Below are positions 17,691-36,082 of a stretch of DNA of 64,000 nt, piece after piece (the stretch's first letter is position 1; the number at the start of each line of letters is the position of its first letter). The notes below the pieces were generated by a model that did no database searches, had not been told where the DNA came from, and saw nothing but the letters and a program-made list of their open reading frames with translations. Source of the DNA: Acidobacteriota bacterium (GTDB taxonomy: Bacteria; Zixibacteria; MSB-5A5; GN15; FEB-12); NCBI GenBank assembly GCA_035529075.1, contig DATKXK010000015.1, positions 124,001 through 188,000 on the forward strand, in the 5' to 3' direction. Both the position numbers and the translations under genes were made by a program.

Positions 17691-18002
17691 CTACCAGATG
17701 CCGAGTTTATCCTTGGCGAGATCGGAGCACATTTCCCTGGGGTCCCAGGGCGGGTCCCAGACCAGGATGATCTCAACCTTCGTAACACCTTCCACCTGGT
17801 CGACCGCCCGGTGCGCGGCCGTCATCAACATCTCACCGTATGGGCAGCCGGGGGTGGTGAGGGTCATTTTCACCGTAACTTCGCCCCCGTCGCCGATCAC
17901 AACATCATAAACCAGCCCGAGATCGACGATGCCGATGCGTATCTCCGGATCCTGGACCGAACGCAGGGCGTCCAGCACGGCTTCGCTGGTCGGTGCGGCC
18001 AT
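17691..18002 (-). CDS. sufT: MIP18/DUF59 family iron-sulfur assembly protein (SufT-like)
   Basis: This 103-residue protein has the DUF59 motifs DPEIRIGIVDLGLVYDV near residue 18 and the conserved Cys in TTPGCPYG. Members assist Fe-S cluster maturation or transfer to apo-proteins. It is the last gene of the suf operon, starting 2 bases after the sufU stop. The end motif WDPPWDPREMCSDLAK is typical of SufT/PaaD-type proteins and adds a second Cys. Confidence 0.9.
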   Translation of the reverse strand: MAAPTSEAVLDALRSVQDPEIRIGIVDLGLVYDVVIGDGGEVTVKMTLTTPGCPYGEMLMTAAHRAVDQVEGVTKVEIILVWDPPWDPREMCSDLAKDKLGIW

Positions 18003-18004
18003 GA

Positions 18005-18484
18005 TTATTCGCTGTCCTCCGTCGTCACGTCGGTCCTGCCTGCCGGCTGCCCGCTCTGGTAGCTTTTCAGACCTTCAATCAGGGTAATCCATGCCAACAG
18101 GGCGCACTTGATGCGCACCGGGAACTTGCGCACGCCCTGAAGCGCTTCGAGGTCCTCGAGTTCCTCGGGAAGGTCGGCGTCCTCGCCCTTGAGCATGCTT
18201 CGCACGACTTCGGCCAGTTTCCCTACTTCTTCGAAGGTCCTCCCCTTGACCGCTTCGGCCAGCATCGAGCCGGAGGCGACCGAGATGGCGCACCCCCGGC
18301 AGTCGACGTGGATGTCCTTCAGAACGTCATTCTCGAGTTCAATCTCCATGTCGATTTCGTCGCCGCAGGCGGGATTCTGCCCGCCTGAGGAGATGTCGGA
18401 TTTTTCCAGCGGTTTCCTGCCACGGGGAGCCCGGTAATGGTCAAGAATGATGTCGCGGTACATTTCGTTCAGGGAGGAACTCAT
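18005..18484 (-). CDS. sufU: SufU-type iron-sulfur cluster assembly protein
   Basis: The ATG at 18484 overlaps the sufS stop as ATGA, so the two are translationally coupled; longer upstream frames run inside sufS. The 159-residue protein has the SufU ligands C40 and D42 (NPACGDE), C65 (CRGCAIS) and a C-terminal Cys in KCALLAW. In SufU systems this zinc-bound protein takes the persulfide sulfur from SufS and activates it. A SufE is therefore not needed, and none is present here. Confidence 0.93.
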   Translation of the reverse strand: MSSSLNEMYRDIILDHYRAPRGRKPLEKSDISSGGQNPACGDEIDMEIELENDVLKDIHVDCRGCAISVASGSMLAEAVKGRTFEEVGKLAEVVRSMLKGEDADLPEELEDLEALQGVRKFPVRIKCALLAWITLIEGLKSYQSGQPAGRTDVTTEDSE

Positions 18485-19758
18485 ACGCCGAAGTATCTCC
18501 TCATCTCCAGCAGCGCCTCGCACAGGGCGTCTATGTCGGCCTCGTCGTTGTAAATATAAAGGGAGGCGCGGGCGGTGGCAACCTTTCCGAGGGTGCGCAT
18601 AAGGGGCTGGGCACAGTGATGGCCCGCCCGGATGGCGATCCCCTTGGAGTCCAGGAAGGTGCTGATGTCGTGCGGATGGATATTCGCGTCCGTGAACGAG
18701 ATCGCGCCGCCGCGGTTGGCGAAGTCCTGCGGTCCCTGGATCTCGACGCCCTTGATCGCGGAGAGGCGTTCGATGGCGTACCGGGTCAGCTGGATCTCGT
18801 GTTCGCGCACGTGCTCCATGCCGATTTCTTCCAGGTACGTCAGGGCAGCGTCGAAAGCGATAACCCCGGCGATGTCAGGCGTCCCGGCTTCGAACTTGTG
18901 CGGCAAATCGTTCCAGGTCACGCGGTCAAAGCGCACCTCGCGAATCATCTCGCCGCCGAAATTGAACGGGGTCATGTCATCGAGCAAATCGCGCCTGCCC
19001 CACAGGACGCCGACCCCGGTCGGCCCGAGCATTTTGTGCGACGAGAAGGCGTAGAAATCAGCGCCCAGTTCCTTGACGTCGACTGGCATTTGGGCCGCCG
19101 CCTGGGCGCCGTCAGCGACAACGACCGCACCTCTGGCGTGGGCTGCCGCGGCGATGTCCGACACCGCGTTGATGGTCCCGAGCACGTTGGACATGTGAGC
19201 GACCGCAACCACTTTCGTGCGCGGCGTGATGATGGTGTCGATATCGCTCAGGTTGAGGTGACCGCAGACGGTGATCGGAATCCGCTTGAGCACGGCCTTC
19301 CTTCTTTTCGCCAGCATGAACCACGGGACCATGTTGGAGTGGTGTTCCATCTCGGTGATGACGATTTCGTCGCCCTCACCGACGTGCTTATCACCCCAGC
19401 TATAGGAGACGAGATTGATCGACTCGGTGGTGCCTCGTGTAAACACGACTTCCTCGGGCCTGACGCCGCCGATGAAGCCGGCCGTGTGAGCGCGGGTGTG
19501 CTCGTATGAATTGGTCGCCCGCTCGGCCAGGGTGTGCAGGCCGCGGTGAATGTTGGCGTTGCTCTTGCGGTAGTATTCAATGACCGCGTTGATCACGGCC
19601 CGAGGTTTCTGTGAGGTTGCCGCGTTGTCCAGGTAGATCAGGCGATGGCCGTTCACCTGCTGGTCCAGGATGGGGAAATCAGCCTTGATTTTCTCTACGT
19701 CCAGTCCCGCCCGCCTGTCGCTTACCGTAAACGGCCTGTTTGAAGAATCCGGTGTCAT
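18481..19758 (-). CDS. sufS: Cysteine desulfurase SufS
   Basis: The PLP-dependent enzyme of 425 residues removes sulfur from cysteine to supply Fe-S cluster assembly. It shows DNAATSQKP at the N-terminal substrate region, the PLP lysine in FSSHKMLGPTG, and the active Cys in RAGHHCAQPLM near the C-terminus, which is the group II (SufS) form. It lies 30 bases after the Rieske-type gene and overlaps sufU, its sulfur acceptor. Confidence 0.96.
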   Translation of the reverse strand: MTPDSSNRPFTVSDRRAGLDVEKIKADFPILDQQVNGHRLIYLDNAATSQKPRAVINAVIEYYRKSNANIHRGLHTLAERATNSYEHTRAHTAGFIGGVRPEEVVFTRGTTESINLVSYSWGDKHVGEGDEIVITEMEHHSNMVPWFMLAKRRKAVLKRIPITVCGHLNLSDIDTIITPRTKVVAVAHMSNVLGTINAVSDIAAAAHARGAVVVADGAQAAAQMPVDVKELGADFYAFSSHKMLGPTGVGVLWGRRDLLDDMTPFNFGGEMIREVRFDRVTWNDLPHKFEAGTPDIAGVIAFDAALTYLEEIGMEHVREHEIQLTRYAIERLSAIKGVEIQGPQDFANRGGAISFTDANIHPHDISTFLDSKGIAIRAGHHCAQPLMRTLGKVATARASLYIYNDEADIDALCEALLEMRRYFGV

Positions 19759-19788
19759 ATTGTATCCCCCGGGATGTCGTTCCTTCGC

Positions 19789-20103
19789 TTAGTCTTCGAG
19801 CGCGACATAAATACTGTCTCCCTCGACCTTCACTTCGAGTGTTTCCACCGGTACGACCGCCGGCGGAGCGGTGACGGCCCCCGATTTTGGGTCGAACCTG
19901 GCGCCGTGGGCACGGCACACAAGCTGGCCGTCGCTTATCTCGCCCTCGCTGAGCGGCACCGATTCGTGCGTGCATTCATCGACGACCGCGTAAAAACCTC
20001 CGGCCGCGTGGACGATCACGAACCGGTGAGGGCCGATTTCGAACCCCTTGAGCGTGCTCTCGGGAATGTCGGCCACCGACGCTACCTTGACGTATTCAGC
20101 CAT
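19789..20103 (-). CDS. Rieske-type [2Fe-2S] ferredoxin
   Basis: The 104-residue soluble protein has the complete Rieske ligand set, C44-T-H46 and C63-R-A-H66, on a small beta fold. It resembles the ferredoxin subunits of non-heme dioxygenases (bedB/NirD-like), but no oxygenase is nearby. It lies 3 bases after sufD and 30 bases before sufS, inside the suf operon, so it may deliver electrons during cluster assembly or be an early client of it. The function is inferred only from position. Confidence 0.88.
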   Translation of the reverse strand: MAEYVKVASVADIPESTLKGFEIGPHRFVIVHAAGGFYAVVDECTHESVPLSEGEISDGQLVCRAHGARFDPKSGAVTAPPAVVPVETLEVKVEGDSIYVALED

Positions 20104-20106
20104 CGT

Positions 20107-21420
20107 CTACATGTCCTCGAGCCGCCGCAGCACGAACGCCGTAATCCGGTCGCGCAGGTCGTCCGGCACCAGCTTCAGCGTCGGAGCCACAAAGCCAGAC
20201 ACGAGCATCCGCACGGCCTGATCCCGGCTGATCCCGCGACTGGCCAGGTAGAAGATAGAGTCCGGATCAACGGGGCCCAGCGTCGCGCCGTGCGAGCAAC
20301 TCACGTCCTCGTTGAGTATCTCCAGCTCGGGAATGGTTTCGGCCCGCGTGCCCGGGCTGAGCAGCAGGTTGCGGTTTTCCTGGTACGCTTCGCAAACGCG
20401 GGCGTGCCTGTCTATCCGTATCAGCCCCGTGTAGGCCGATTGCGCCCGGTCCCGGAGAACTACCTTGAAGTCGATATTCGATACCGTCTGGCCGTGCGCG
20501 TGGTGGTGCAGAGTGTGGTTGTCGAAATGCTGGTGGCCCGTCCCAAAGAGGAGGCCGTACATCTTGCTCTCGGCCCCCTGGCCGTTCATGATGACGCCGA
20601 AGTTCTGTTTGCACAGGGTCGCGCCGAACACCAGGGGGATGGTCAGCATGTTGGCACCACGTTCGATCCTGGCCCGGTGCGTCAGGTAGGCCCGCATGCC
20701 CGGCCCCTGCCGTTGCAGCGTCACGTAGCGGGTCCGGCTGCCGGCAAGCCCGAACATCTCCACGGCGGCGTTGGCATACGAGAGCCCGGTTCCGTCGTTG
20801 GAGGAGCCGCCGCCGTACTCGTCGATCAGGGTCAGCTCGGCATTTCTGCCGACCACGACCAGCAGCCTGGGATACTGGACGGAACCGGCCGGGCCGGCTT
20901 CCCGCAGCAGATGGATCGGTTTTTCGACAACGCGGTTGTCGGGCACGAAAATGAAAATGCCGTCATTCCACAGTGCCCCGTTCATCGCTTCCATCTTTCC
21001 GGTCTGGCTGTTGACCAGGCCGTACAGATAGGGCTCTACAAGATCATGATGCTGCTCGACCGCCTTTGAAAGCGGCATGACCACCAGGCCCTGCGACGCC
21101 GGTTGATCCAGCCCGTAGCTCTTGATTTGACGTCCCCCGAGATCGGTCACAAGCCCTGCCAGGTGTCCGGATCTCAGATGTTCCAGCTCGATCTCCTCGA
21201 CGGCGTCATGGTGATCGCCGAAAGGCGTATCGTCTTCGGACGGTTTGGCGAGAAACTTCGCCGGATCGGTGTACCGCCACAGGTGCAGACCCCGGCGAGG
21301 CAGAGGGGTACTGTTGAAACTCTCCTGCAGCGACCGCCGTTTCTGCCTGAGCCAGAGCGGCCCCTGTTCCAGAGCCGGAGCGGCGTCCGGGATCGTATAT
21401 TCAGTCTTGCCGGTACTCAT
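20107..21420 (-). CDS. sufD: SufD, Fe-S scaffold complex subunit
   Basis: The start at 21420 follows the sufB stop by 2 bases and gives 437 residues; the frame is open upstream but only inside sufB. The central beta-helix region has the SufBD pattern (GANMLTIPLVFGATLCKQNF, HALHHHAHG-type histidines in NHTLHHHAHGQT) and the C-terminal helical tail CSHGATLGPVDPDSIFYLASRGI. The conserved His in SCSHGA is at the expected cluster-assembly interface. SufD pairs with SufB and binds SufC to build and release Fe-S clusters. Confidence 0.94.
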   Translation of the reverse strand: MSTGKTEYTIPDAAPALEQGPLWLRQKRRSLQESFNSTPLPRRGLHLWRYTDPAKFLAKPSEDDTPFGDHHDAVEEIELEHLRSGHLAGLVTDLGGRQIKSYGLDQPASQGLVVMPLSKAVEQHHDLVEPYLYGLVNSQTGKMEAMNGALWNDGIFIFVPDNRVVEKPIHLLREAGPAGSVQYPRLLVVVGRNAELTLIDEYGGGSSNDGTGLSYANAAVEMFGLAGSRTRYVTLQRQGPGMRAYLTHRARIERGANMLTIPLVFGATLCKQNFGVIMNGQGAESKMYGLLFGTGHQHFDNHTLHHHAHGQTVSNIDFKVVLRDRAQSAYTGLIRIDRHARVCEAYQENRNLLLSPGTRAETIPELEILNEDVSCSHGATLGPVDPDSIFYLASRGISRDQAVRMLVSGFVAPTLKLVPDDLRDRITAFVLRRLEDM

Positions 21421-21422
21421 GA

Positions 21423-22856
21423 TCAGCCTATTGACCCTTCCATTTCGAGTTCGATCAACCGGTTGAGCTCGACCGCATACTCGAGCGGCAATTCCTTCGT
21501 GAACGGCTCCATGAAGCCGTTGACGATCAGGAGCCGGGCTTCGTCTTCGCTCAGACCGCGACTGGTCAGGTAAAACAATTGCTCCTCGGCGACTTTGGAG
21601 ACCCGGGCTTCGTGCTCGACACGCACCTGCTCGCAGTCGATTTCCATGGTAGGGTAGGTGTCGCTGCGGGCTTCCTGGCCGATCAGCAGGGCGTCGCACT
21701 CGACCGATACTTTGGAGTTATGGGCGTTCTTGTGCACCTTGACGAGGCCGCGGTACGAGGCCCGGCCGGCGTCCTTGGAGATGGACTTGGACGTGATCCG
21801 CGAGGACGTGCGCGGGGCCGCATGAATCACCTTGGCTCCGGCGTCCTGGTGCTGGCCGCTTCCGGCAAAGGCGACGGAGAGGATCTCCCCCCGGGCCCCT
21901 TCGCCCAGCAACTGGATGCAGGGGTATTTCATCGTCAGGCGCGACCCCAGGTTGCCGTCGACCCATTCGACGGTGGCATTGCTGTGAGCCGAGGCGCGCT
22001 TGGTGACCAGGTTGTAAATGTTACGAGACCAATTCTGGATGGTCGTGTACCGGATGCTGGCGCCTTCCATGGCGATCACTTCCACCACCGCCGAGTGCAG
22101 AGAATCGGTCGAGTATACCGGCGCCGTGCAGCCCTCGATATAGTGCACCCGGGCCCCTTTGTCGGCGATAATCAGCGTCCGCTCAAACTGGCCCATATTC
22201 TCGGCGTTGATGCGGAAATATGCCTGCAGCGGGACCTTGACGTCGACCCCGGGCGGAACGTAGATAAACGAACCGCCGGACCAAACGGCGGTGTTCAGGG
22301 CCGCAAACTTGTTGTCGCGAGTGGGAATGATCGAGCCGAAGTACTTCTCGACGATGTCCGGGTGCTCTCTCAGGCCGCTGTCCATGTCGAGAAAGACGAT
22401 CCCCTGCTTCTTCAGGTCGTCGCGCATCGAGTGGTAGACCACCTCGGATTCATACTGGGCCGAGACGCCGCCGAGAAAATCTCTCTCCGCCTGCGGTATC
22501 CCGAGCCGGTCGAACGTCTTCTTTATATATTCGGGGACGTCATCCCAGCTCGTCTGCTGCTTCTCGATCGGCTTCATGAAATAGTAAATGTTATCAAAGT
22601 CGATCTCACTGAGCAGTTCCGTATTGCCCCACTGCGGGATCGGTTTGGAGTAGAACACTTCGAGAGCCTCGTGGCGGCGCTCGCTCATCCAGCGGGGCTC
22701 CTTTTTCATCCGGGAGATCATTTCCACTACTTCATGGTCCAGGCCCCTGGCCCCCTTGTGGAAGTAGTCCACCGGGTCCCGAAACCCGTACCTGGCGGCG
22801 TAATCCTCGTTGAGCGCCGTAAGGTCGCGCCTCTGGTCCTGCGCGGGCTTAGACAT
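21423..22856 (-). CDS. sufB: SufB, Fe-S scaffold protein
   Basis: The 477-residue protein is close to the family norm. N-terminal residues 1-120 contain [16 protein letters not shown] and [11 protein letters not shown]; the core has [21 protein letters not shown], and the C-terminal domain has the [20 protein letters not shown] motif shared with SufD. It overlaps the sufC stop by 8 bases, so translation is coupled. In the SufBCD complex it carries the nascent cluster, with cysteine ligands including the one in YIEGCTAP. Confidence 0.96.
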
Positions 22857-23628
22857 CGCTGACCTCCGCCTTACGCCCGAACTGTTTTTCCACCCAGTCG
22901 TAACCCTGCTCCTCCAGTTTGAGGGCCAGTTCGGGGCCGCCGGATGTCACAAATTGACCGTTCATCATGACGTGCACGTAGTCGGGTTTGACGTAGTTCA
23001 GGAGCCTCTGGTAGTGGGTTACCATCAATACACTGTTATTGGCCCCGCTGAACCGGTTGATTCCATCGGCCACCGTCTTGAGGGCGTCGATATCGAGCCC
23101 CGAATCCGTTTCGTCCAGAACGGCCATCTTCGGATTGAGAACCGACATCTGGAGGATCTCCACCCGCTTCTTTTCCCCGCCGGAGAAACCGTCGTTGAGG
23201 TACCGGGTGGCAAACGAGGGATCGATTGAGAGCTCCTTCATCTTGCTCTTGAGCAACTTCCTGAAGTCGGTCATGTCGGCGTCCTTGCCGCGATGTGCCT
23301 GCAGGGCGCTGCGCATGAAATTGGCCACCGACACGCCCGGGATCGCCAGGGGATACTGGAAAGCCAGAAAGAGCCCGGCCCGCGACCGCTCGTCGGCTTC
23401 CATCTCCAGAAGGTTCCGGCCGTCCAGAAAGGCCTCGCCCTGCGATATCCGGTACGACGGGTGGCCCATCAAGGCGTTGGAAAGAGAGGATTTGCCTGAC
23501 CCGTTCGGCCCCATGATGGCGTGCACCTCTCCGGCGTGCACTGTCAGTGACACCCCCGAGACAACTTCCTTGCCCTCGATCTCTACGCGTACGTTCTTGA
23601 ACGCCAGCAGTGCTCGTTTATGACTCAT
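22849..23628 (-). CDS. sufC: SufC, ATPase of the Fe-S assembly complex
   Basis: This ABC-type ATPase of 259 residues has Walker [10 protein letters not shown] (40-48), the signature [14 protein letters not shown] and Walker [15 protein letters not shown], the last being specific to SufC. The start is the second of two adjacent ATG codons (23628 and 23631), 7 bases after AAGGA. Unlike transporter ATPases it has no membrane partner; it drives conformational change in SufB-SufD. It begins 16 bases after the regulator gene. Confidence 0.95.
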
Positions 23629-23644
23629 CATCTGTTCCTTGTGT

Positions 23645-24187
23645 CTATTCCTTGTCCTGAGTTGTGCGTTTGTAACGGTTTTCGTGCCGTTCGTGCGGAC
23701 TGCTGCCCGCGCTGTCGGCCGGCGCATCCGAGCCCGCCTTCACACCCTGCTTGAACCGTTCTGCCGGCGCCGGGGCGTCTTCCAGAACGTCACGAAGGCT
23801 GGCGTTGGAGAGGAACGCCTGCACGTACCCGGCCAAGCCATCGAGCACCCCGTGGACCGAGCATCGATCACCATGCACACAGGTTTCGAGTTGCCCGGTG
23901 TATTTGCCGCAGTGGTTGGGATCGATCAGCGGTCCCCCCAGCGCGGTCAGTGCCTCATACAGCGTAATCTCCTCCGGGCGGCGGGCAATGCTGAATCCGC
24001 CGCCGCGCCCCCGTTCGGCCACGACAAGCCCCGCTTTGCGCAGGATAGATAACAGCTTGGACGCGTACGGCACGGACAGTCCCTCGATTTCGGCGATTTC
24101 AGAGATCGAGAGCTGGCCGCCGGGTCCGACTCGCGCCAGGCTGATCAGGCAGCGCAACCCGTATTCCTCTACTGCTGTAATTCTCAT
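23645..24187 (-). CDS. Rrf2-family regulator of the suf operon (IscR-like)
   Basis: The 180-residue protein has the Rrf2 winged helix: LSISEIAEIEGLSVPYASKLL as recognition part and the wing GRGGGFSIARRP. Three cysteines, C93, C103 and C109, match the Fe-S binding trio of IscR-like sensors, though the first spacing is longer than in E. coli IscR. The C-terminal tail of about 45 residues after the cluster region is charged and probably disordered. It is the first gene of the suf operon, so it very likely senses Fe-S status and represses its own promoter through the inverted repeat at 24228-24250. Confidence 0.9.
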   Translation of the reverse strand: MRITAVEEYGLRCLISLARVGPGGQLSISEIAEIEGLSVPYASKLLSILRKAGLVVAERGRGGGFSIARRPEEITLYEALTALGGPLIDPNHCGKYTGQLETCVHGDRCSVHGVLDGLAGYVQAFLSNASLRDVLEDAPAPAERFKQGVKAGSDAPADSAGSSPHERHENRYKRTTQDKE

Positions 24188-24972: not shown

Positions 24973-25109
24973 CGGCAACGTGCAAGGGTGCCGCATGTGA
25001 CTGGTGTTCGCGAACAGGCCCGTTCACTCGCGTCCTGTGCGCGGCCGCTCGCTCCATGAAGGGAACGAATCGGTCTCCTCGTCGTGCGTGCGTTAGATAG
25101 ATCGAAAAT

Positions 25110-25133
25110 CCGCTTGCCAAAGGACGCAAGCGG
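25110..25133. terminator. Hairpin after mntP, possible terminator
   Basis: CCGCTTG (25110-25116) and CAAGCGG (25127-25133) form a perfect 7-bp stem with a 10-base loop. The plus strand has only a poor T stretch after it; the minus strand has ATTTTC, so the element could act in either direction. Confidence 0.4.
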
Positions 25134-25142
25134 GCTTATCGT

Positions 25143-25218: not shown

Positions 25219-27000
25219 ATGAAACAGTTACTTTCAGGAAACGAAGCGGTGGCCCGAGGCGCATACGAGGCGGGTGTGAAGCTTGCGGCCAGCTATCCCG
25301 GCACGCCCTCGACCGAGATTCTCGAGACCCTGGCCGCGCAGTACCGGTCCATTTACTCCCAATGGTCTCCCAATGAGAAGGTCGCCTTTGAGGTCGGTAT
25401 CGGTGCCTCCCTGGGCGGGGCGCGGGCCCTGGTGGCCATGAAGCACGTCGGGCTTAATGTGGCCGCCGACCCGTTCATGACGTTTGCGTACACCGGCGTC
25501 AACGGGGGATTCGTGGTGGTTTCCGCTGATGACCCGGAGCTGCATTCCTCGCAGAACGAACAGGACAACCGATACTATGCCCGCTTCGCGCAGGTGCCGA
25601 TGCTCGAGCCGGCGGACAGCCAGGAATCCAAGGACATGGTCATCACGGCTTTTGAGCTCTCGGAAGCGTTCGACATCCCGGTCATGCTGCGCATGACCAC
25701 CCGCATATCGCACTCCAAGGGTGTCGTGTCGCTCGGCGAGGTGGCGGTGGCGCCGGAGCGGAAGTTCGTCAAGAATCCCCGGAAGTATGTAATGATTCCA
25801 TCCAACGCCCGCGTCCGCCACGTTGCCCTGAGGGAACGGTTGGAGAAGCTGAGCAGGTTTACGGAGGAAACGCCGCTCAATTTCGTGGAGGACAACGGTT
25901 CCAGCATCGGCATTATCGCCGCAGGCGTCGCCTACCAGTACGCCAAGGAGGTTGCCCCGGACTTTGACTACTTCAAGATCGGCATGAGCTACCCGTTGCC
26001 GCTCAAGAAGATTGCCGACTTCGTTCGCGCCCACGAGCGCGTCATCGTGGTCGAGGAGCTCGAGCCGTTCATGGAGGACCAGATCAAAGTGGCCGGCTGC
26101 CACGTAAGAGGCAAGGAGTATTTTGGGCATCTCGGCGAGCTTTCGCCGCATCGCGTGGCCGAGGGGCTGAAGAAAGCCGGTGTCCTCGAATCGGTGACGG
26201 TGGCGTCCATCCCGCCCGAGGAAGGGATGTTTCCCCGGCCGCCGGTGCTCTGTCCGGGTTGCCCGCACCGGGGCGCTTTCATGGCTCTCAAGAAACTGGG
26301 TGTGGTGGCCACCGGCGACATCGGGTGCTATACGCTCGGCGTTCTGGAGCCGCTGGACGCCCTGGATTCCTGCATCTGCATGGGAGCCTCGATTGGCAGC
26401 GCCATCGGCATAGAGAAGGTCCAGGGTTCGGACAAGGGCACGGTGGCGGTGATCGGCGACTCCACTTTCCTGCACTCCGGCGTCACCGGGCTGATGGACG
26501 CCGTCTACAACAACAGCAACGTGACGGTCATCATTCTTGACAACCGCGCCACGGCCATGACGGGCGGTCAGCAGCATCCCGGAACGGGGCGCACCCTGAT
26601 GGGGGAACAGGCGGGTCAGATCGACATCGGCACCCTGTGCAAGGCCCTCGGCGTCAAGAACTACCGCGATCTGGACCCCTATGACTACGAGGCTACGCTT
26701 AACGCCGTCAAGGAAGAGATAGCCCGGCCGGGCCCCTCGGTCATCCGCACCAGTCGCCCCTGCGTGCTGATGCCGAAACGCATCATGGATGAACCTTACG
26801 TGGTGGACCTGGAACTGTGCAACGCCTGTTCGGCCTGTTTCAGGATTTCCTGTCCGGCCATCGCGGCATCCAAAGAAACAAATAAGCGGGGTCATCCCAA
26901 GGCCGTCATAGATGAGACCGTGTGCACCGGCTGTACGCTGTGTGCCCAGATATGCCCAACAGAGGCGATTGTCCTCAGGAGCCAGTTTGTGGCACAGTAG
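25219..27000 (+). CDS. iorA: Indolepyruvate:ferredoxin oxidoreductase, alpha subunit
   Basis: The 593-residue subunit oxidises aryl-pyruvates (from Trp, Phe, Tyr transamination) to acyl-CoA and reduces ferredoxin. The N-terminal domain starts LLSGNEAVARGAYEAGV and has YPGTPSTEI; CPGCPHRGAF leads into the TPP-binding domain with GDIGCYTLG and GDSTFLHSG. The C-terminus carries two [4Fe-4S] motifs, CNACSACFRISCP and CTGCTLCAQICP. It is the first gene of a five-gene operon ending in acyl-phosphate enzymes. Oxygen-sensitive chemistry suggests use under anoxic conditions. Confidence 0.95.
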   Translation: MKQLLSGNEAVARGAYEAGVKLAASYPGTPSTEILETLAAQYRSIYSQWSPNEKVAFEVGIGASLGGARALVAMKHVGLNVAADPFMTFAYTGVNGGFVVVSADDPELHSSQNEQDNRYYARFAQVPMLEPADSQESKDMVITAFELSEAFDIPVMLRMTTRISHSKGVVSLGEVAVAPERKFVKNPRKYVMIPSNARVRHVALRERLEKLSRFTEETPLNFVEDNGSSIGIIAAGVAYQYAKEVAPDFDYFKIGMSYPLPLKKIADFVRAHERVIVVEELEPFMEDQIKVAGCHVRGKEYFGHLGELSPHRVAEGLKKAGVLESVTVASIPPEEGMFPRPPVLCPGCPHRGAFMALKKLGVVATGDIGCYTLGVLEPLDALDSCICMGASIGSAIGIEKVQGSDKGTVAVIGDSTFLHSGVTGLMDAVYNNSNVTVIILDNRATAMTGGQQHPGTGRTLMGEQAGQIDIGTLCKALGVKNYRDLDPYDYEATLNAVKEEIARPGPSVIRTSRPCVLMPKRIMDEPYVVDLELCNACSACFRISCPAIAASKETNKRGHPKAVIDETVCTGCTLCAQICPTEAIVLRSQFVAQ

Positions 27001-27010
27001 GTGAGTGACT

Positions 27011-27616
27011 ATGCAAGACAAAGACAACTACAGTATCCTGATAGTGGGAGTCGGCGGGCAGGGCGTGCTGCTGGCCTCCGAGATTATCTCCGAGGTTGCC
27101 ATGACCGCCGGACTCGACGTGAAGAAGTCGGAGGTTCATGGCATGGCTCAGCGCGGCGGCGTCGTAACCTCGCACGTGCGCATCGGTCCCAGGGTGTACT
27201 CACCGACCATCGAGTACGGCAGCGCCGATATTCTCATCTCGTTTGAGCAGGCCGAGGGACTTCGCGCGGTCGACTGGCTCCGTAAGGACGGTATCGCCAT
27301 CATCTCCGGCACGACCCTGATCCCGGCCATCGTCACGTCCTCCAGGAAGCACCACTATCCCGAGGACGCCATCGCACGTCTGAGGGAAAAGCTGGACCGC
27401 GTTATCCCGGTCCAGGCCGACAAGATTGCCGCCGAGATCGGCAATCCGCGACTGGTGAATACCATACTTCTGGGTGTCCTGTCCAACTACCTGCCGTTCG
27501 AGCGTGATCAGTGGACCGACACCATCAAGGCGAAAATCAAGGCCAGGCTGGTGGATATCAACCTGGAGGCGTTTGAACGCGGTCGGGCAATCAAGCTGGC
27601 TTCGGTCGGGGCATAG
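27011..27616 (+). CDS. iorB: Indolepyruvate:ferredoxin oxidoreductase, beta subunit
   Basis: The 201-residue protein is the gamma-domain partner of iorA, with VGVGGQGVLLASEI at the N-terminus and VHGMAQRGGVVTSHVRIG following, both hallmarks of this family. The ATG at 27011 has GGTGAG 5 bases before it; a GTG at 27005 is possible. The gap to iorA is 10 bases. Confidence 0.94.
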   Translation: MQDKDNYSILIVGVGGQGVLLASEIISEVAMTAGLDVKKSEVHGMAQRGGVVTSHVRIGPRVYSPTIEYGSADILISFEQAEGLRAVDWLRKDGIAIISGTTLIPAIVTSSRKHHYPEDAIARLREKLDRVIPVQADKIAAEIGNPRLVNTILLGVLSNYLPFERDQWTDTIKAKIKARLVDINLEAFERGRAIKLASVGA

Positions 27617-27626
27617 GAGCGGGATC

Positions 27627-28694
27627 GTGGCGGCATTGATGCTTATCATAAACCCGGGTTCGACTTCGACGAAGACGGCGCTGTTCGACGGCGACGGGAA
27701 AGTGGCCGAAGAGGTCGTCAGGCACGATCCCGCCGAACTGCGCCGGTTTGACAACGTGACGGATCAGTTCGACTACCGGATGCAGGCCATCGATCACTGG
27801 ATTGACTCGCTCAAAGTCGATCCTGACCAGGTCAAGGCCGTGGTAGGGCGGGGCGCGCCCCTTCGACCGCTCGAAGGCGGCTCGTACGCGATAACCGATC
27901 AGATGCTCCAGGACTTGCGGACGGCCAGGTATTCCAACCACGCGTCCAACCTGGGGGCCATCATCGCACGGCATCTCGGCGAACGGTACGGCGTGCCGTC
28001 GCTGATATCGGACCCCGTCACGGTGGACAATTTTACGGACGTGGCGCGGGTGAGCGGTATCCCTGAGATAGAGCGCAAGTGTCGAGTGCATGCCTTGAAC
28101 ATCAAAGAAGTCTGTCGGCGCGAGGCCGCAAAGACCGGCAAGCGCCTGGACGAGGTCAACTACGTGGCCGTTCACATGGGCGGCGGGGTTTCCGTCGCGG
28201 CGCTGAGGCGCGGGCTTGTAATCGACGTCAACGACGCGCTGCTGGGAATGGGGCCGTTCTCTCCCGACCGCGCCGGTGCGCTGCCGATCGGCGGACTGGT
28301 CAAGCTCTGCTATTCGGGCAAGTACACCGAGAAGGAAATGACCGATAAACTGTCGAAGAAATCCGGCCTTGCGGCGTACGTCGGCAGCGGCGACCTGCGC
28401 GAGGTTGAGGAGATGATCGACAACGGTGACGAGAAGGCACTGCTGTACCTCGAGGCCATGGCCTACCAGATTGCCAAGGAGATCGGGTCTGCGGCAGTGG
28501 TCCTGGCCGGTGATTTCGAGGCGATCGTGCTGACCGGCGGGATGGCGTATTCGAAGCGCCTGGTCGACGAAATCACCGGGCGGGTGTCATTCTTTAAAAA
28601 GGTGGTGACCGTGCCCGGCGAGTTTGAAATGGAAGCGCTGGCGGCCGCCGGACGACGGTTCCTCGCGGGTGAAGATCAGTTGAAGGAATACTGA
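27627..28694 (+). CDS. buk: Butyrate kinase (acyl-phosphate kinase)
   Basis: This ASKHA-fold kinase of 355 residues turns acyl-phosphate plus ADP into acid plus ATP. IINPGSTSTKTALFD gives the N-terminal phosphate-binding motif, VAVHMGGGVSVAAL and GGMAYSKRLV are the central and C-terminal motifs; the size fits butyrate rather than acetate kinase. The GTG at 27627 follows GGAG by 7 bases. Next to an aryl-pyruvate oxidoreductase, the physiological substrate may be a branched or aromatic acyl-phosphate. Confidence 0.92.
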   Translation: MAALMLIINPGSTSTKTALFDGDGKVAEEVVRHDPAELRRFDNVTDQFDYRMQAIDHWIDSLKVDPDQVKAVVGRGAPLRPLEGGSYAITDQMLQDLRTARYSNHASNLGAIIARHLGERYGVPSLISDPVTVDNFTDVARVSGIPEIERKCRVHALNIKEVCRREAAKTGKRLDEVNYVAVHMGGGVSVAALRRGLVIDVNDALLGMGPFSPDRAGALPIGGLVKLCYSGKYTEKEMTDKLSKKSGLAAYVGSGDLREVEEMIDNGDEKALLYLEAMAYQIAKEIGSAAVVLAGDFEAIVLTGGMAYSKRLVDEITGRVSFFKKVVTVPGEFEMEALAAAGRRFLAGEDQLKEY

Positions 28695-28719
28695 GAATCC
28701 TCTCACAGGCAGGTGGGGC

Positions 28720-29673
28720 GTGGATAACCAACCGATATACTCGTCGGACCAGTTGATTGAACGGGCCGTTGCCGTCGCTGAAGCAGGGCGCAAAAAAACC
28801 GTAGCGGTGGCGGCGGCGCAGGATGCCGACGTTATCGGCGCAGTGGCCGAGGCTCAGGCCGACGGGTTTCTCGACGGCATTCTGTTCGGCGATGAAGAGA
28901 AAATCAGGGCCATGGCCGGGGATCTGAAAATAAGCATCGACAATCTGACCGTGAAAGACGAGCCGGATCCCCTGGCGGCTGCTCATGCCGCGGCCAGACT
29001 CGCTTCGGAGAAAAAAGCCGACGCGATCATGAAAGGCTTCCTGCCGACGTCGGCCCTCCTGAAAGTAGTGCTCGATAAGCAGTACGGCCTGCGCGGACCG
29101 AACACTCTCTCGCACTGCGCCGTGCTTGACATCCCCGGGTACCATAAGCTGTTGAATTTCACCGACGGCGGCATGGTGGTGAGGCCGAATTCGGAGCAGA
29201 AATACCAGATCCTTGAGAATGCCGTTATGGTCGGCCGGGCGCTGGGATTGTCGCCGGTCAAGGTTGCCCTGTCGGCGGCCACCGACAAGTACACCGAGCG
29301 GATGCCGCACACCCTCTCGGACGTCGATACGGTCATACCGATGGTGCTCAAGCGTCTCGAAGACGTCGTCATCCAGGGGCCGCTCTCGCTGGATCTTGCG
29401 TCCTCCCGGTCGGTGGCGGAACGCCACACCAATACGGGGGAAGTCCTTGGTGACGCCGACATCTACGTGGTTGATTCCATTGAGGAAGGCAACATAATCG
29501 CCAAGTCGCTGATCCAGTTTGCCGAAGCCGTTTTCGCCGGCGTCATAGTCGGAGCGAGAGTCCCGGTTTCACTGGTCTCACGGACAGACACGGTGAAGAA
29601 CAAAAAGGCTTCCCTGGCCCTGGCCTGCGTGATCGCGGACTACTACGTGCAAAACAGAATCTGGGAGAACTGA
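28720..29673 (+). CDS. Phosphate butyryltransferase-like acyltransferase (paralogue 1)
   Basis: The 317-residue protein belongs to the phosphate acetyl/butyryltransferase family, which converts acyl-CoA and phosphate to acyl-phosphate and CoA. Family motifs seen: ADAIMKGFLPTSALLKVVLDK, LSHCAVLDIPGYHKLLNFTDGGM, and VIQGPLSLDLASS. The GTG start at 28720 has AGGTGG upstream, 25 bases after buk. It should provide the substrate of the kinase next door. Confidence 0.88.
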   Translation: MDNQPIYSSDQLIERAVAVAEAGRKKTVAVAAAQDADVIGAVAEAQADGFLDGILFGDEEKIRAMAGDLKISIDNLTVKDEPDPLAAAHAAARLASEKKADAIMKGFLPTSALLKVVLDKQYGLRGPNTLSHCAVLDIPGYHKLLNFTDGGMVVRPNSEQKYQILENAVMVGRALGLSPVKVALSAATDKYTERMPHTLSDVDTVIPMVLKRLEDVVIQGPLSLDLASSRSVAERHTNTGEVLGDADIYVVDSIEEGNIIAKSLIQFAEAVFAGVIVGARVPVSLVSRTDTVKNKKASLALACVIADYYVQNRIWEN

Positions 29674-29676
29674 ACG

Positions 29677-30612
29677 ATGCTGCCGGAAATGGAAATCCCC
29701 GAGGTACACACGTTCGAGGCCGTACTCGAGCGCGCCGGACGCAAAGCGGCGGGCCTCAGGCCGAAGGCCGCCCTGATCGTGCCGTGCGAGATCGACGACC
29801 TCAAGGCGTTTGTGCGTGCCTGGCATGACCGGCTCATCGAGCCGGTCTTCATCGGCGACAAGGATCGGCTTATAAAGACTGCCGCCGAGCATCATATCGG
29901 CCTGGGCGAACCCCGTTTCGAAGACGTGAAGCAGCCTGACGAGGCGGTGACGGCGGCGGCCCGGATGGCGAAAGCCGGGGAGACCGACCTGATCGCCATG
30001 GGGCAGGTGCCGGTCGCCCGCATGCTCGCGCTGCTGTTTGCCTCCGACCAGGGTTTCCGACTGCCCGCCAGGACCGTCTCTCACGTCGCCGTGCTGAAAC
30101 CCGAGAAGTATCGAAAACTGCTCCTGCTGACCGACAGTGCGGTGGTGGTGCAACCGGACCTCAAGAAAAAAGTCGATCTGATCAAGAACTTGGTTTTCGT
30201 CTCTGAGCGGATCGGCATCGCCGGCCCCAGGGTGGCCGTGGTGGGCGCGGTTGAAGTCATCTACCCGCAGATGCCGGCGACAGTGGAGGCGGCGGTGCTG
30301 GCCAAGATGGGAGAACGCGGGCAGATCAAAGGGGCCAGGGTCGACGGGCCGCTCTCCTTTGACGTGGCGGTGGACATGGCCGCCGCCTATGCCAAGGGCA
30401 TCAAGGACTCACCCGTGGCCGGTCAGGCGGACGCTCTGGTAGCTCCCAACATCGAGGTTGCCAACGGCGTATACAATGCCATGACGCTATATGGTCGGTG
30501 CCAGATAGGCGGTGTGATCGTCGGTGGCAGGGTGCCTCTTGCGGTAAACGCCCGGGCCGATTCTGAGGCCGCGCGTTACAATTCGATCGTGCTTTCCGTT
30601 CTTGCCTGCTGA
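29677..30612 (+). CDS. Phosphate butyryltransferase-like acyltransferase (paralogue 2)
   Basis: A second member of the same family (311 residues) begins 3 bases after the first ends, with GGGAG before its ATG. It keeps TDLIAMGQVPVARMLALL, TVSHVAVLKPEKYRKLLLLTDSA, and ARVDGPLSFDVAVDM, but is well diverged from its neighbour; for instance MKGFLPT is replaced by MGQVPVA. The pair may have different chain or ring preferences, or form a mixed complex. That is inference. Confidence 0.85.
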   Translation: MLPEMEIPEVHTFEAVLERAGRKAAGLRPKAALIVPCEIDDLKAFVRAWHDRLIEPVFIGDKDRLIKTAAEHHIGLGEPRFEDVKQPDEAVTAAARMAKAGETDLIAMGQVPVARMLALLFASDQGFRLPARTVSHVAVLKPEKYRKLLLLTDSAVVVQPDLKKKVDLIKNLVFVSERIGIAGPRVAVVGAVEVIYPQMPATVEAAVLAKMGERGQIKGARVDGPLSFDVAVDMAAAYAKGIKDSPVAGQADALVAPNIEVANGVYNAMTLYGRCQIGGVIVGGRVPLAVNARADSEAARYNSIVLSVLAC

Positions 30613-30680: not shown

Positions 30681-30709
30681 TTGACTGTGCCGTTTAACCC
30701 TATTATTAT
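30681..30709 (+). promoter_or_regulatory. Sigma70-type promoter before the mannose-1-phosphate gene
   Basis: TTGACT (30681-30686) and TATTAT (30704-30709) are 17 bases apart, each five of six to consensus. Start near 30716, leader about 31 bases. Confidence 0.75.
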
Positions 30710-30746: not shown

Positions 30747-31826
30747 GTGATTTACGGTATAATTATGGCTGGCGGCAAAGGTGAACGATTCTGGCCGCTG
30801 TCGCGATTGGACAGGCCCAAGCAATTCCTCAAGTTGACATCCGATATGACTATGCTTGACGAGACTATCGGACGTATCCAGATGATGATACCGCTCGAGA
30901 GGTTGCGCATTGTCACGGCCGAATCCATGGCCGGAATGGTTCTGGATTCAGCCGATTGCCTGAAGCCCGAGCACATCTTTGCCGAACCGTGCGGGCGAAA
31001 CACCAGCCTGGCCATCGGGCTTGCAGCCGTGCACATCAGGCGTGCCGACCCGGAGGCCGTTATGGTCGTGCTCTCGGCCGATCATCTGATCCGACCGGCG
31101 GAGAAGCTGATCAAGATCCTCGAGGACGGCTGCCGCATTGCCGCCAAAGACGACGTGCTGATTACTGTCGGTATTGTGCCGACCCGTCCGGAGACGAGCT
31201 ACGGGTATATCAAGTTGGGCAAGCCGTACCCGTTTGAAGGTGGAACCACCGTATACGAGGTCATGGCCTTTACCGAGAAACCGAAGACGGTGGTGGCCCA
31301 GGAATACTATTACAGTCACAAGTACCTGTGGAACGCGGGCATGTTCATCTGGACGGCGGAGTCCATTCTCAAGGCGCTGGCGGAGCATCGCGCCGACGTG
31401 TACGCCATGCTCATGGAGTACGCGGATGCCATCGGCACCGACGGGGAAGCGGATGCGCGCACCCGCCTCTACGAGAAGTCGCCCTCGATCTCGGTGGACT
31501 ATGCGGTGCTGGAAAAAGCCGGGAACGTTCTGACCATGAAGGCGGACATCGTCTGGGACGACGTCGGCAGCTGGAATGCACTGGAACGATACAAGGAACG
31601 GGATTCCGACAACAACGTCGTCGTCGGCAGCGCGGTTCTGCATGACTCGTTCGAAACCACCGTGTTCAACGACAGTGAAGGCGTGGTCACGTGCCTCGGC
31701 GTTTCCGATCTCGTCGTGGTGCGTTCGTCGAACATAACACTGGTCGCCCACAAGACCAAGCTCCTACAGATAAAGGAGCTGCTGAACAAGCTCGGTGAAG
31801 ATGAAGAAACTCGAAAGTATCTGTAG
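30747..31826 (+). CDS. manC: Mannose-1-phosphate guanylyltransferase
   Basis: The GTG at 30747 has GGGAG 5 bases upstream and gives 359 residues. The N-terminal IIMAGGKGERFWPLSR is the nucleotide-binding signature, followed by RPKQFLKL and, in the middle, FTEKPKT and WNAGMFIW. The enzyme makes GDP-mannose from mannose-1-phosphate and GTP for polysaccharides and glycans. The bacterial C-terminal isomerase domain of bifunctional forms is absent. It heads an operon of five overlapping or adjacent genes. Confidence 0.93.
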   Translation: MIYGIIMAGGKGERFWPLSRLDRPKQFLKLTSDMTMLDETIGRIQMMIPLERLRIVTAESMAGMVLDSADCLKPEHIFAEPCGRNTSLAIGLAAVHIRRADPEAVMVVLSADHLIRPAEKLIKILEDGCRIAAKDDVLITVGIVPTRPETSYGYIKLGKPYPFEGGTTVYEVMAFTEKPKTVVAQEYYYSHKYLWNAGMFIWTAESILKALAEHRADVYAMLMEYADAIGTDGEADARTRLYEKSPSISVDYAVLEKAGNVLTMKADIVWDDVGSWNALERYKERDSDNNVVVGSAVLHDSFETTVFNDSEGVVTCLGVSDLVVVRSSNITLVAHKTKLLQIKELLNKLGEDEETRKYL

Positions 31827-34567: not shown

Positions 34568-36082
34568 ATGGCTAAATTAGTGGAATGCGTGCCCAACTTC
34601 TCCGAGGGACGTCGCCCTGAGGTGATCGACGCTATATGCAAGGCGATAACGTCGGTGAAGGGAGTCACCCTGCTTGACGAGGAGATGGATGCCGACCACA
34701 ACCGGGCGGTCGTTACTTTTGTCTGTCACCCCAATCAGGCCGTCGAAGCCGCCTTTCGCGGTTACCAGAAGGCGGCCGAGCTGATAGACATGAGAACGCA
34801 TTCCGGCGAACACCCGCGTATGGGTGCCTGCGACGTCTGTCCCTTTATTCCGCTGTCGGACGTGACCGAGGAAGATGTCGTCGAGTTGGCCCACAAGCTT
34901 GGCCGGAGGGTAGGCGAAGAGTTGCAGATACCGGTCTACCTGTACGAAAACGCCGCCACTACGCCCAAGCGGAGGAACCTGGCCAGGGTCCGCACCGGTC
35001 AGTATGAAGGCATCCGGGATTCCATAGAGATTGATCCGTCGCGCAAGCCCGACTACGGTCCGGCCAGGATCAATCTCAAGGCCGGGGCCACCGCTATCGG
35101 TGTCCGCTTTCCCCTCATTGCTTTCAACGTCTACCTGGGCACAAACAAGAAGTGGATTGCCGACAAGATCGCCGATGCGGTCAGAAGCCTGCGGGGCGGG
35201 TACCGCTTTGTCAAGGCGCTCGGTTTTGAGATTAAAGAACGCGACCAGGTGCAGATATCGATGAACCTGGTCAACTATACCAGGACCCCGATATTCCGCG
35301 TCCTGGAGACCATCCGTAGCGAGGCCGCCCGTTACGGTGTCAACGTGACCTCCACGGAAATCGTCGGTCTTGTCCCCAATGACGCCATCCTCGACGTCGC
35401 TGATTTCTACCTGCAATTGGAGAATTTCTCCAAAGCGCAGGTCCTGGAGTCCAGGCTGCAGGAGGCCGGGACGGCCGGGAGTCAGCCCGGTGAGAGTTTC
35501 TACGACCAGGTGGCGTCCTCGTCTCCCGCCCCGGGCGGCGGGTCCGTAGCTGCATCGGCCGGAGCCCTCTCGGCCGCCCTGACGGCCATGGTGTGCCGGC
35601 TGACGGTGGGCAAGAAACAGTATGCGGACGTCAAAGACGAACTCAGCACGGTTCGCGACCGCGCGGACGACCTCCGCGAAGAACTTGTCACCCTGATCGA
35701 GACCGACAAGGAGGCCTTCAACGCCGTGATGGACGCGTACAAGCTTCCCAAGGGCACGGCGGAGCGCGACGAGGCCGTGCAGGAAGCCACCAAGCGGGCC
35801 GCCCTGGTCCCGCTTACGGTCATGCGCAAGGCCCTGGACGTCCTGACCATGGCGAGCACGGTAGCCCGGAAAGGGAACGAGAACTCGATAACGGACGCCG
35901 GGGTGGCCGGCCTGATGGGTCTGGCGGCGGTTCAGGGCGCCGGGTACAACGTTCGCATCAACCTGGTTTCGCTGAAGGATACCGAGACGGCGGCCCGGTT
36001 GAAAGCTGAAGCGCTCGACCTGATCGAGAAAGCCACGACCGTGGCTGAGGAGATCCAACAGTTGGTCGAAGAGAAACTATAG
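34568..36082 (+). CDS. ftcD: Bifunctional glutamate formimidoyltransferase / formimidoyl-THF cyclodeaminase
   Basis: The 504-residue fusion has the transferase at about residues 1-300 (LVECVPNFSEGRR, HSGEHPRMGACDVCPFIP with the catalytic His, DHNRAVVTF) and the cyclodeaminase at about 315-504 (VASSSPAPGGGSVAASAGAL). It passes the formimino group of histidine breakdown to tetrahydrofolate and releases ammonia. GGAGAG lies 6 bases before the ATG. No other histidine-degradation genes are in the window. Confidence 0.95.
   Translation: MAKLVECVPNFSEGRRPEVIDAICKAITSVKGVTLLDEEMDADHNRAVVTFVCHPNQAVEAAFRGYQKAAELIDMRTHSGEHPRMGACDVCPFIPLSDVTEEDVVELAHKLGRRVGEELQIPVYLYENAATTPKRRNLARVRTGQYEGIRDSIEIDPSRKPDYGPARINLKAGATAIGVRFPLIAFNVYLGTNKKWIADKIADAVRSLRGGYRFVKALGFEIKERDQVQISMNLVNYTRTPIFRVLETIRSEAARYGVNVTSTEIVGLVPNDAILDVADFYLQLENFSKAQVLESRLQEAGTAGSQPGESFYDQVASSSPAPGGGSVAASAGALSAALTAMVCRLTVGKKQYADVKDELSTVRDRADDLREELVTLIETDKEAFNAVMDAYKLPKGTAERDEAVQEATKRAALVPLTVMRKALDVLTMASTVARKGNENSITDAGVAGLMGLAAVQGAGYNVRINLVSLKDTETAARLKAEALDLIEKATTVAEEIQQLVEEKL

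Follow-up and report, generated by a model that had tools for sequence, protein, structure and literature searches.

A probable heteromeric phosphotransacylase encoded by two adjacent genes beside an indolepyruvate ferredoxin oxidoreductase in Zixiibacteriota and related lineages

In many fermentations, phosphotransacylases convert acyl-CoA to acyl-phosphate. In archaea, indolepyruvate ferredoxin oxidoreductase (IOR, IorAB) is combined with an ADP-forming acyl-CoA synthetase that takes acyl-CoA to ATP in one enzyme, whereas the operon described in this study, with the same IorAB chemistry and a predicted ATP yield, would use two steps via acyl-phosphate. It lies in a 64,000-nucleotide stretch (the window) of contig DATKXK010000015.1 (assembly GCA_035529075.1, positions 124,001 to 188,000), where five open genes follow one another on the forward strand (25219–30612) and specify IorA, IorB, an acyl kinase of the butyrate-kinase family (Buk) and two phosphotransacylase paralogues, Ptb1 and Ptb2. 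Judging from their residues, the two Ptb genes most likely encode two halves of one enzyme sharing a single active site.

The closest described systems are clostridial. The wiring has been reconstituted for hydroxyphenylpyruvate with HpdDEFG, HpdJ and HpdK of Clostridium scatologenes (PMC13285125, published in 2026), and in C. difficile a kinase encoded next to IOR acts best on phenylacetate and hydroxyphenylacetate and less well on indoleacetate (PMC13285125). Many IOR-cluster genes of Peptostreptococcales are also reported to lie near a phosphotransacylase and a kinase, or near an ADP-forming ligase (PMC13285125). The window shares with the Hpd and C. difficile clusters a 2-oxo acid ferredoxin oxidoreductase (OFOR), a phosphotransacylase of the PTB family and a kinase of the butyrate-kinase family, all in one cluster, and so has by gene content the Hpd-type oxidative aryl Stickland arrangement; the conversion of arylpyruvate to arylacetate with gain of ATP and reduced ferredoxin is predicted here from the genes. 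It differs from the Hpd trio in having IorAB where HpdDEFG is VOR-related with four subunits, in having a degenerate pair of phosphotransacylases where HpdJ is one (PMC13285125), and in its host, Zixiibacteriota as against Clostridia.

An earlier note on this DNA had described an operon of IorAB, butyrate kinase and a phosphotransacylase pair, running from 2-oxo acid through acyl-CoA and acyl-phosphate to ATP plus reduced ferredoxin. The operon itself stands, as IorA, IorB and Buk score above curated cut-offs and both Ptbs match PF01515. The proposed chain fits the gene families, but it is not new (PMC13285125), plausibly being the oxidative Stickland logic already known in kind from Clostridia. 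The pair, for its part, is indeed two adjacent genes of the PTA/PTB family, but not two like enzymes: they have decayed reciprocally, Ptb2 has lost some catalytic residues, and neither reaches the cut-off of the phosphate butyryltransferase equivalog TIGR02706 (410 bits; Ptb1 250, Ptb2 247). It is here that the locus probably departs from what is known, as a heteromeric phosphotransacylase.

The phosphotransacylases of the structure papers drawn on here are homo-oligomers. In MtPta of M. thermophila, the CoA lying in the cleft of one subunit (A) is bound by residues of that subunit together with Gln244 and Lys257 from its partner (B) (given second-hand in PMC9706017). In CaPTB of C. acetobutylicum (structure 7vg9), Asp217 pairs with Lys254 across subunits, and E181, R202 and D211 are the contacts that link dimers to form the octamer (PMC9706017). 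In TpPta, the changes S314A and R315A leave 0.30% and 0.07% of activity (PMC10194888). Sixteen CaPTB residues named in PMC9706017 were checked by letter, and a single offset (12) placed all of them correctly on the fragment aligned. Phrase searches of the open-licence literature found no description of a heteromeric or heterodimeric phosphotransacylase; the titles and abstracts of matching literature described no phosphate butyryltransferase heterodimer, and no account of Zixibacteria with these enzymes stood among the matches listed.

Residues were scored in CaPTB numbering as an A side, forming the cleft (K97, N250, K254, S279, R280 and D282), and a B side (D217 and K228). The Ptb1 protein of the window has the whole A side (K105, N258, K262, S287, R288, D290), with H236 replacing the expected Lys228; MtPta Lys257 and CaPTB Lys228 both align with this His236 in a stretch without gaps, the equivalence of the two lysines being read from alignments. 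Ptb2 has E193, R214, D223, D229 and K240, and carries M108, N267 and A292 at cleft positions. Neither protein unites the Ser-Arg pair with the cross-subunit Lys, Ptb1 being without the Lys (His236) and Ptb2 without the Ser (Ala292). Single-chain models of both are confident (mean pLDDT 91.0 for Ptb1 and 92.2 for Ptb2) and have 7vg9 as best structural match (TM score 0.88 and 0.91), and for these reasons neither looks like a decayed protein that no longer folds. Together the two proteins resemble CaPTB in fold and, when summed, in active-site set, and differ from that one-gene homo-octamer with identical sites in that each lacks part of the site. Ptb1 would supply the cleft with its catalytic Ser-Arg-x-Asp, Asn and Lys, and the CoA site of Ptb1 would be completed from the other side of the dimer interface by Lys240 and Asp229 of Ptb2. 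Composite sites shared by duplicated subunits with a related two-domain fold are found in heteromeric NAD-isocitrate dehydrogenase, an enzyme of different reaction, family and lineage.

The same division of residues is seen far beyond the window. After genes shorter than 265 aa, genes without a stop in the contig and identical proteins had been left out, 68 Ptb1, 68 Ptb2 and 24 reference Ptbs were aligned (alignments A1 and A2 hold 20 chosen rows each), and pairs were counted where a locus contained Ptb1 and Ptb2 no more than 1300 bp apart (n = 63). In all 63 pairs Ptb1 has the full A set and Ptb2 both B residues, while the reverse composite, with Ptb2 as A and Ptb1 as B, is complete in none; all 24 references retain every A and B residue. 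Lys228 is present in 68/68 Ptb2 and in only 14 of the 68 Ptb1, and Ser279 and Arg280 are both kept by 68/68 Ptb1 as against 44/68 (Ser279) and 36/68 (Arg280) in Ptb2. Where 90% or more of the references share a residue, Ptb1 retains it better at 13 positions of the N-terminal domain and 6 of the C-terminal domain, and Ptb2 at 0 and 13 (Fisher p = 1.2e-4, with positions that are not independent).

A distribution of this kind might also be expected if Ptb1 were self-sufficient and Ptb2 its regulatory or scaffolding pseudoenzyme, giving no active-site residues and comparable to the PTA domain that acts as a sensor in hybrid malic enzymes. The PTA domains of MaeB are without catalytic residues and serve as acetyl-CoA sensors (PMC7902834). 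They are like Ptb2 in being of PTA fold with catalysis lost (in Ptb2 a prediction from residues) and unlike it in being fused to malic enzyme, Ptb2 being a stand-alone gene always found beside a catalytic PTA paralogue. The presence of all six cleft residues in 63/63 Ptb1, and the loss of at least one in 56/63 Ptb2, agree with such a role. We nonetheless regard it as rather unlikely, since it leaves unexplained why Lys228, the residue reported to enter the partner's active site (PMC9706017), should be lost in 54/68 Ptb1 (15 of them to Arg) and retained in every Ptb2.

As the pairs share ancestry and the counts are not independent, changes were also counted by parsimony on a tree. No A position has changed in Ptb1, but each did so 5 to 11 times in Ptb2; for D217 and K228 it is Ptb2 that shows no change, with 6 and 5 changes in Ptb1. 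The 68 Ptb1 rows form a single clade (SH-aLRT 99), and the 68 Ptb2 rows all lie on the same side of a branch (93). A recent redundant duplication was considered for the pair and dropped, the tree showing each paralogue to be old and separate. Loci fetched via a Ptb2 query, plus the window, have the A set intact in 36/36 Ptb1, and those fetched via Ptb1 have the B set intact in 27/27 Ptb2; neither half of the composite therefore depends solely on loci that were chosen through it, although the patterns of the contig scan did include Ptb1 motifs. In four deep lineages (L143, L146, L149, L151), Ptb2 is complete except for Asp282 to Glu and Ptb1 is already without Lys228, and these pairs look like an early stage of the decay.

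Pairing of the two genes is obligate: Ptb2 immediately follows Ptb1 in 72/72 judgeable distinct loci (4 of 76 being cut by contig ends), even where other genes of the operon are absent (L058, L060, L061, L062). That the copies are never apart in these 72 loci speaks against their being two independent phosphotransacylases, one per acyl-CoA class and differing in substrate range, as does the loss of Ser279 and/or Arg280 in 36/63 Ptb2, changes of a kind that leave less than 1% activity in TpPta (PMC10194888). Such a division of labour is very improbable here, even if tandem copies are the usual ground for specialisation and other families of the phylum do have two Ptbs near a Buk gene with every scored residue kept in both. 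In the latter (L066, L067, L083, L084), two complete Ptbs lie about 1–2 kb apart within an apparently different 2-oxo acid cluster. Tandem Ptbs of families f12–f14 were considered as the same kind of pair and rejected, all residues being kept, and were used as references.

How the subunits might assemble is suggested by the octamer contacts E181, R202 and D211, kept in 59/63 Ptb2 (R or K at 202) and in 1/63 Ptb1. If these contacts still work in Ptb2, Ptb2 would pair with Ptb2 and leave Ptb1 outside, and the simplest form of the putative Ptb1-Ptb2 complex would be a Ptb1-Ptb2-Ptb2-Ptb1 tetramer with catalysis in the Ptb1 clefts only. At rather better than even odds, then, the pair is a heteromeric phosphotransacylase with one composite site per Ptb1-Ptb2 heterodimer, probably α2β2, that arose by complementary loss after duplication and persists in Zixiibacteriota and related lineages, where it would take acyl-CoA to acyl-phosphate in an energy pathway of aryl acids. 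Several points weigh against this interpretation or the wider reading of the operon. Ptb1 keeps both D217 and K228 in 12/63 pairs, where it may be self-sufficient, and Ptb2 keeps all six A residues in 7/63, where the same may hold for it; some lineages could therefore still form working homomers. Ser279 and Arg280 are both kept in 27/63 Ptb2, the Arg at position 228 in 15/68 Ptb1 is a conservative change, and K97 was assigned to the A set from conservation and not from a paper. The commonest Ptb1 change among the octamer contacts is the mild E181 to D (45/68), and the assembly inference is weakened by the statement in PMC9706017 that these contacts are not conserved among the enzymes compared. 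At the level of the operon, three loci (L063–L065) have IorAB without kinase genes, and two genomes (G024, G025) carry the Ptb pair without any Buk match.

In the proposed pathway, IorAB would oxidise an aryl-2-oxo acid to arylacetyl-CoA with reduction of ferredoxin, the phosphotransacylase would convert arylacetyl-CoA to arylacetyl-phosphate, and the Buk-family kinase would yield ATP and arylacetate by substrate-level phosphorylation. We put at about 0.6 the probability of the reading as a whole, that operon and heteromeric phosphotransacylase carry out ferredoxin-linked oxidation of aryl-2-oxo acids giving ATP; within it, the aryl specificity and the oxidative direction are suggested by gene families and gene neighbourhood. 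The same genome has one pyruvate ferredoxin oxidoreductase (PFOR) and two POR-type gamma subunits as its other OFORs, and elsewhere an acetate kinase, a canonical Pta-family protein and one acetate–CoA ligase-like protein, and the aryl route is therefore the likely niche of the operon. Branched-chain or short-chain acids are distinctly unlikely as substrates instead, given that IorA exceeds the curated indolepyruvate cut-off and that the IOR-linked kinase of C. difficile prefers aryl acids (PMC13285125), although the kinase and Ptb are named for butyrate and branched acids are reported to be handled by VOR-linked kinases (PMC13285125).

The pathway could also run in reverse, the kinase and phosphotransacylase activating arylacetates and IorAB carboxylating them reductively to arylpyruvates for phenylalanine. 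Every step of the Hpd route is reported reversible, and IOR is thought to be reversed in methanogens and perhaps Bacteroides (PMC13285125). The window's genome (G000, completeness 100) has chorismate synthase, and a family search, which did not cover phenylpyruvate routes outside PF00800, found no PF00800 prephenate dehydratase in it; reverse running might therefore supply phenylalanine. Across 132 genomes of the phylum, however, IorA shows no association with PF00800 (14/30 genomes with it and 51/102 without; p = 0.84), and an OFOR-linked pair of kinase and phosphotransacylase is the arrangement shown for ATP-yielding oxidation (PMC13285125), so that we think the reverse direction unlikely. 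IorA as a marker of genomes lacking phenylalanine synthesis was likewise dropped, on that PF00800 result and on p = 0.07 for chorismate synthase. PF00800 was seen in only 30/132 genomes, and family f4 is mostly without chorismate synthase yet has the operon.

Among the same 132 genomes, IorA was found in at least 65, Buk in 75 and both in at least 53 (the IorA search scored the best 9 of up to 41 candidates per genome, which makes absences soft). Of the 53 genomes with both, 49 have the two genes no more than 5 kb apart, mostly across the same IorB-sized gap of about 660 bp; their linkage is thus not chance, and the conserved order that the earlier note had proposed looking for in other genomes was found. 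A contig scan, whose patterns included the Ptb1 motifs SRTD and MKG, gave 63 loci, mostly from Candidatus Zixiibacteriota, some being labelled GN15, LCP-89, KSB1, Calditrichota or Eisenbacteria. Buk-Ptb1-Ptb2 occurs without IorAB in L058 and L060, the Ptb pair stands alone in L061 and L062, and in L139, L143 and L145 (one labelled KSB1, one LCP-89) IorA comes after the pair and not before it. Related genomes thus lack IorAB, Buk-Ptb1-Ptb2 or the Ptb pair independently of one another, which looks like losses or gains of whole blocks; a ManC gene is often near, downstream of the remaining module (L061–L065 and the window). In L059 (8212–9101; G012), only about the first half of IorA is left, spread over two frames, and IorB is missing, with Buk-Ptb1-Ptb2 still open; the oxidoreductase may be eroding, or the assembly may be at fault. 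Three of the 63 loci are from Coprothermobacter (L156, L157, L159) and have a lone Ptb beside Buk-family genes, one on each side in L156 and L159; a strong match to IorA is present in the L156 genome as well.

If the heteromeric enzyme is real, the split between two genes is a natural test of the catalytic need for the cross-subunit Lys seen in crystals, and an obligate enzyme was produced through duplication followed by complementary loss. For annotation, neither Ptb gene alone should be called phosphate butyryltransferase in these genomes. In ecological terms, an aryl-acetate route with ATP gain, known from Clostridia, would be extended to a phylum represented here by metagenome-assembled genomes alone.

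Within the operon the gaps between genes are 10, 22, 25 and 3 bp (Table 1). IorA has POR_N, thiamine pyrophosphate-binding and ferredoxin-type 4Fe-4S domains all fused in the alpha subunit, with a separate POR-type beta subunit (IorB), and Buk aligns over its full length with the butyrate kinase 2 structures 1saz and 1x9j (E 1e-92).

Table 1. Positions of the operon genes, selected codons and flanking features in the window
Feature	Position	Strand	Evidence and remarks
IorA, indolepyruvate ferredoxin oxidoreductase alpha subunit	25219..27000	+	TIGR03336 727 bits (cut-off 651); PF01855, PF02775, PF00037/PF12838
IorB, beta subunit	27011..27616	+	NF005322 242 bits (cut-off 237); PF01558; GTG start at 27005 possible
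Butyrate-kinase family acyl kinase (Buk)	27639..28694	+	TIGR02707 457 bits (cut-off 289); GTG at 27627 possible
Ptb1, PTA/PTB paralogue, proposed catalytic subunit	28720..29673	+	PF01515 119 bits (cut-off 24)
Ptb2, PTA/PTB paralogue, proposed partner subunit	29677..30612	+	PF01515 96 bits (cut-off 24)
Ptb1 Ser287-Arg288 codons	29578..29583	+	CaPTB Ser279-Arg280, MtPta Ser309-Arg310; kept in 68/68 Ptb1
Ptb2 Lys240 codon	30394..30396	+	CaPTB Lys228, MtPta Lys257; cross-subunit CoA contact (PMC9706017)
Terminator-like stem upstream of iorA	25109..25134	+	Consensus match only; weak
ManC-like mannose-1-phosphate guanylyltransferase, downstream neighbour outside the system	30750..31826	+	TIGR01479 293 bits, below cut-off 373

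Terminator-like stems number 7 in the region against 4.3 expected, and the one before iorA is hence merely suggestive. An RNA element controlling the operon was considered and dropped, an Rfam search giving no match. Downstream, manC begins 137 bp past ptb2 and has a promoter-like site of its own (consensus match, 30681–30709). Just upstream, on the opposite strand (17691–24187), translations read by eye indicate a SUF-type iron-sulphur assembly cluster with an Rrf2-like regulator, and further downstream (34568–36082, +) an ORF, also read by eye, resembles a fused glutamate formiminotransferase-cyclodeaminase.

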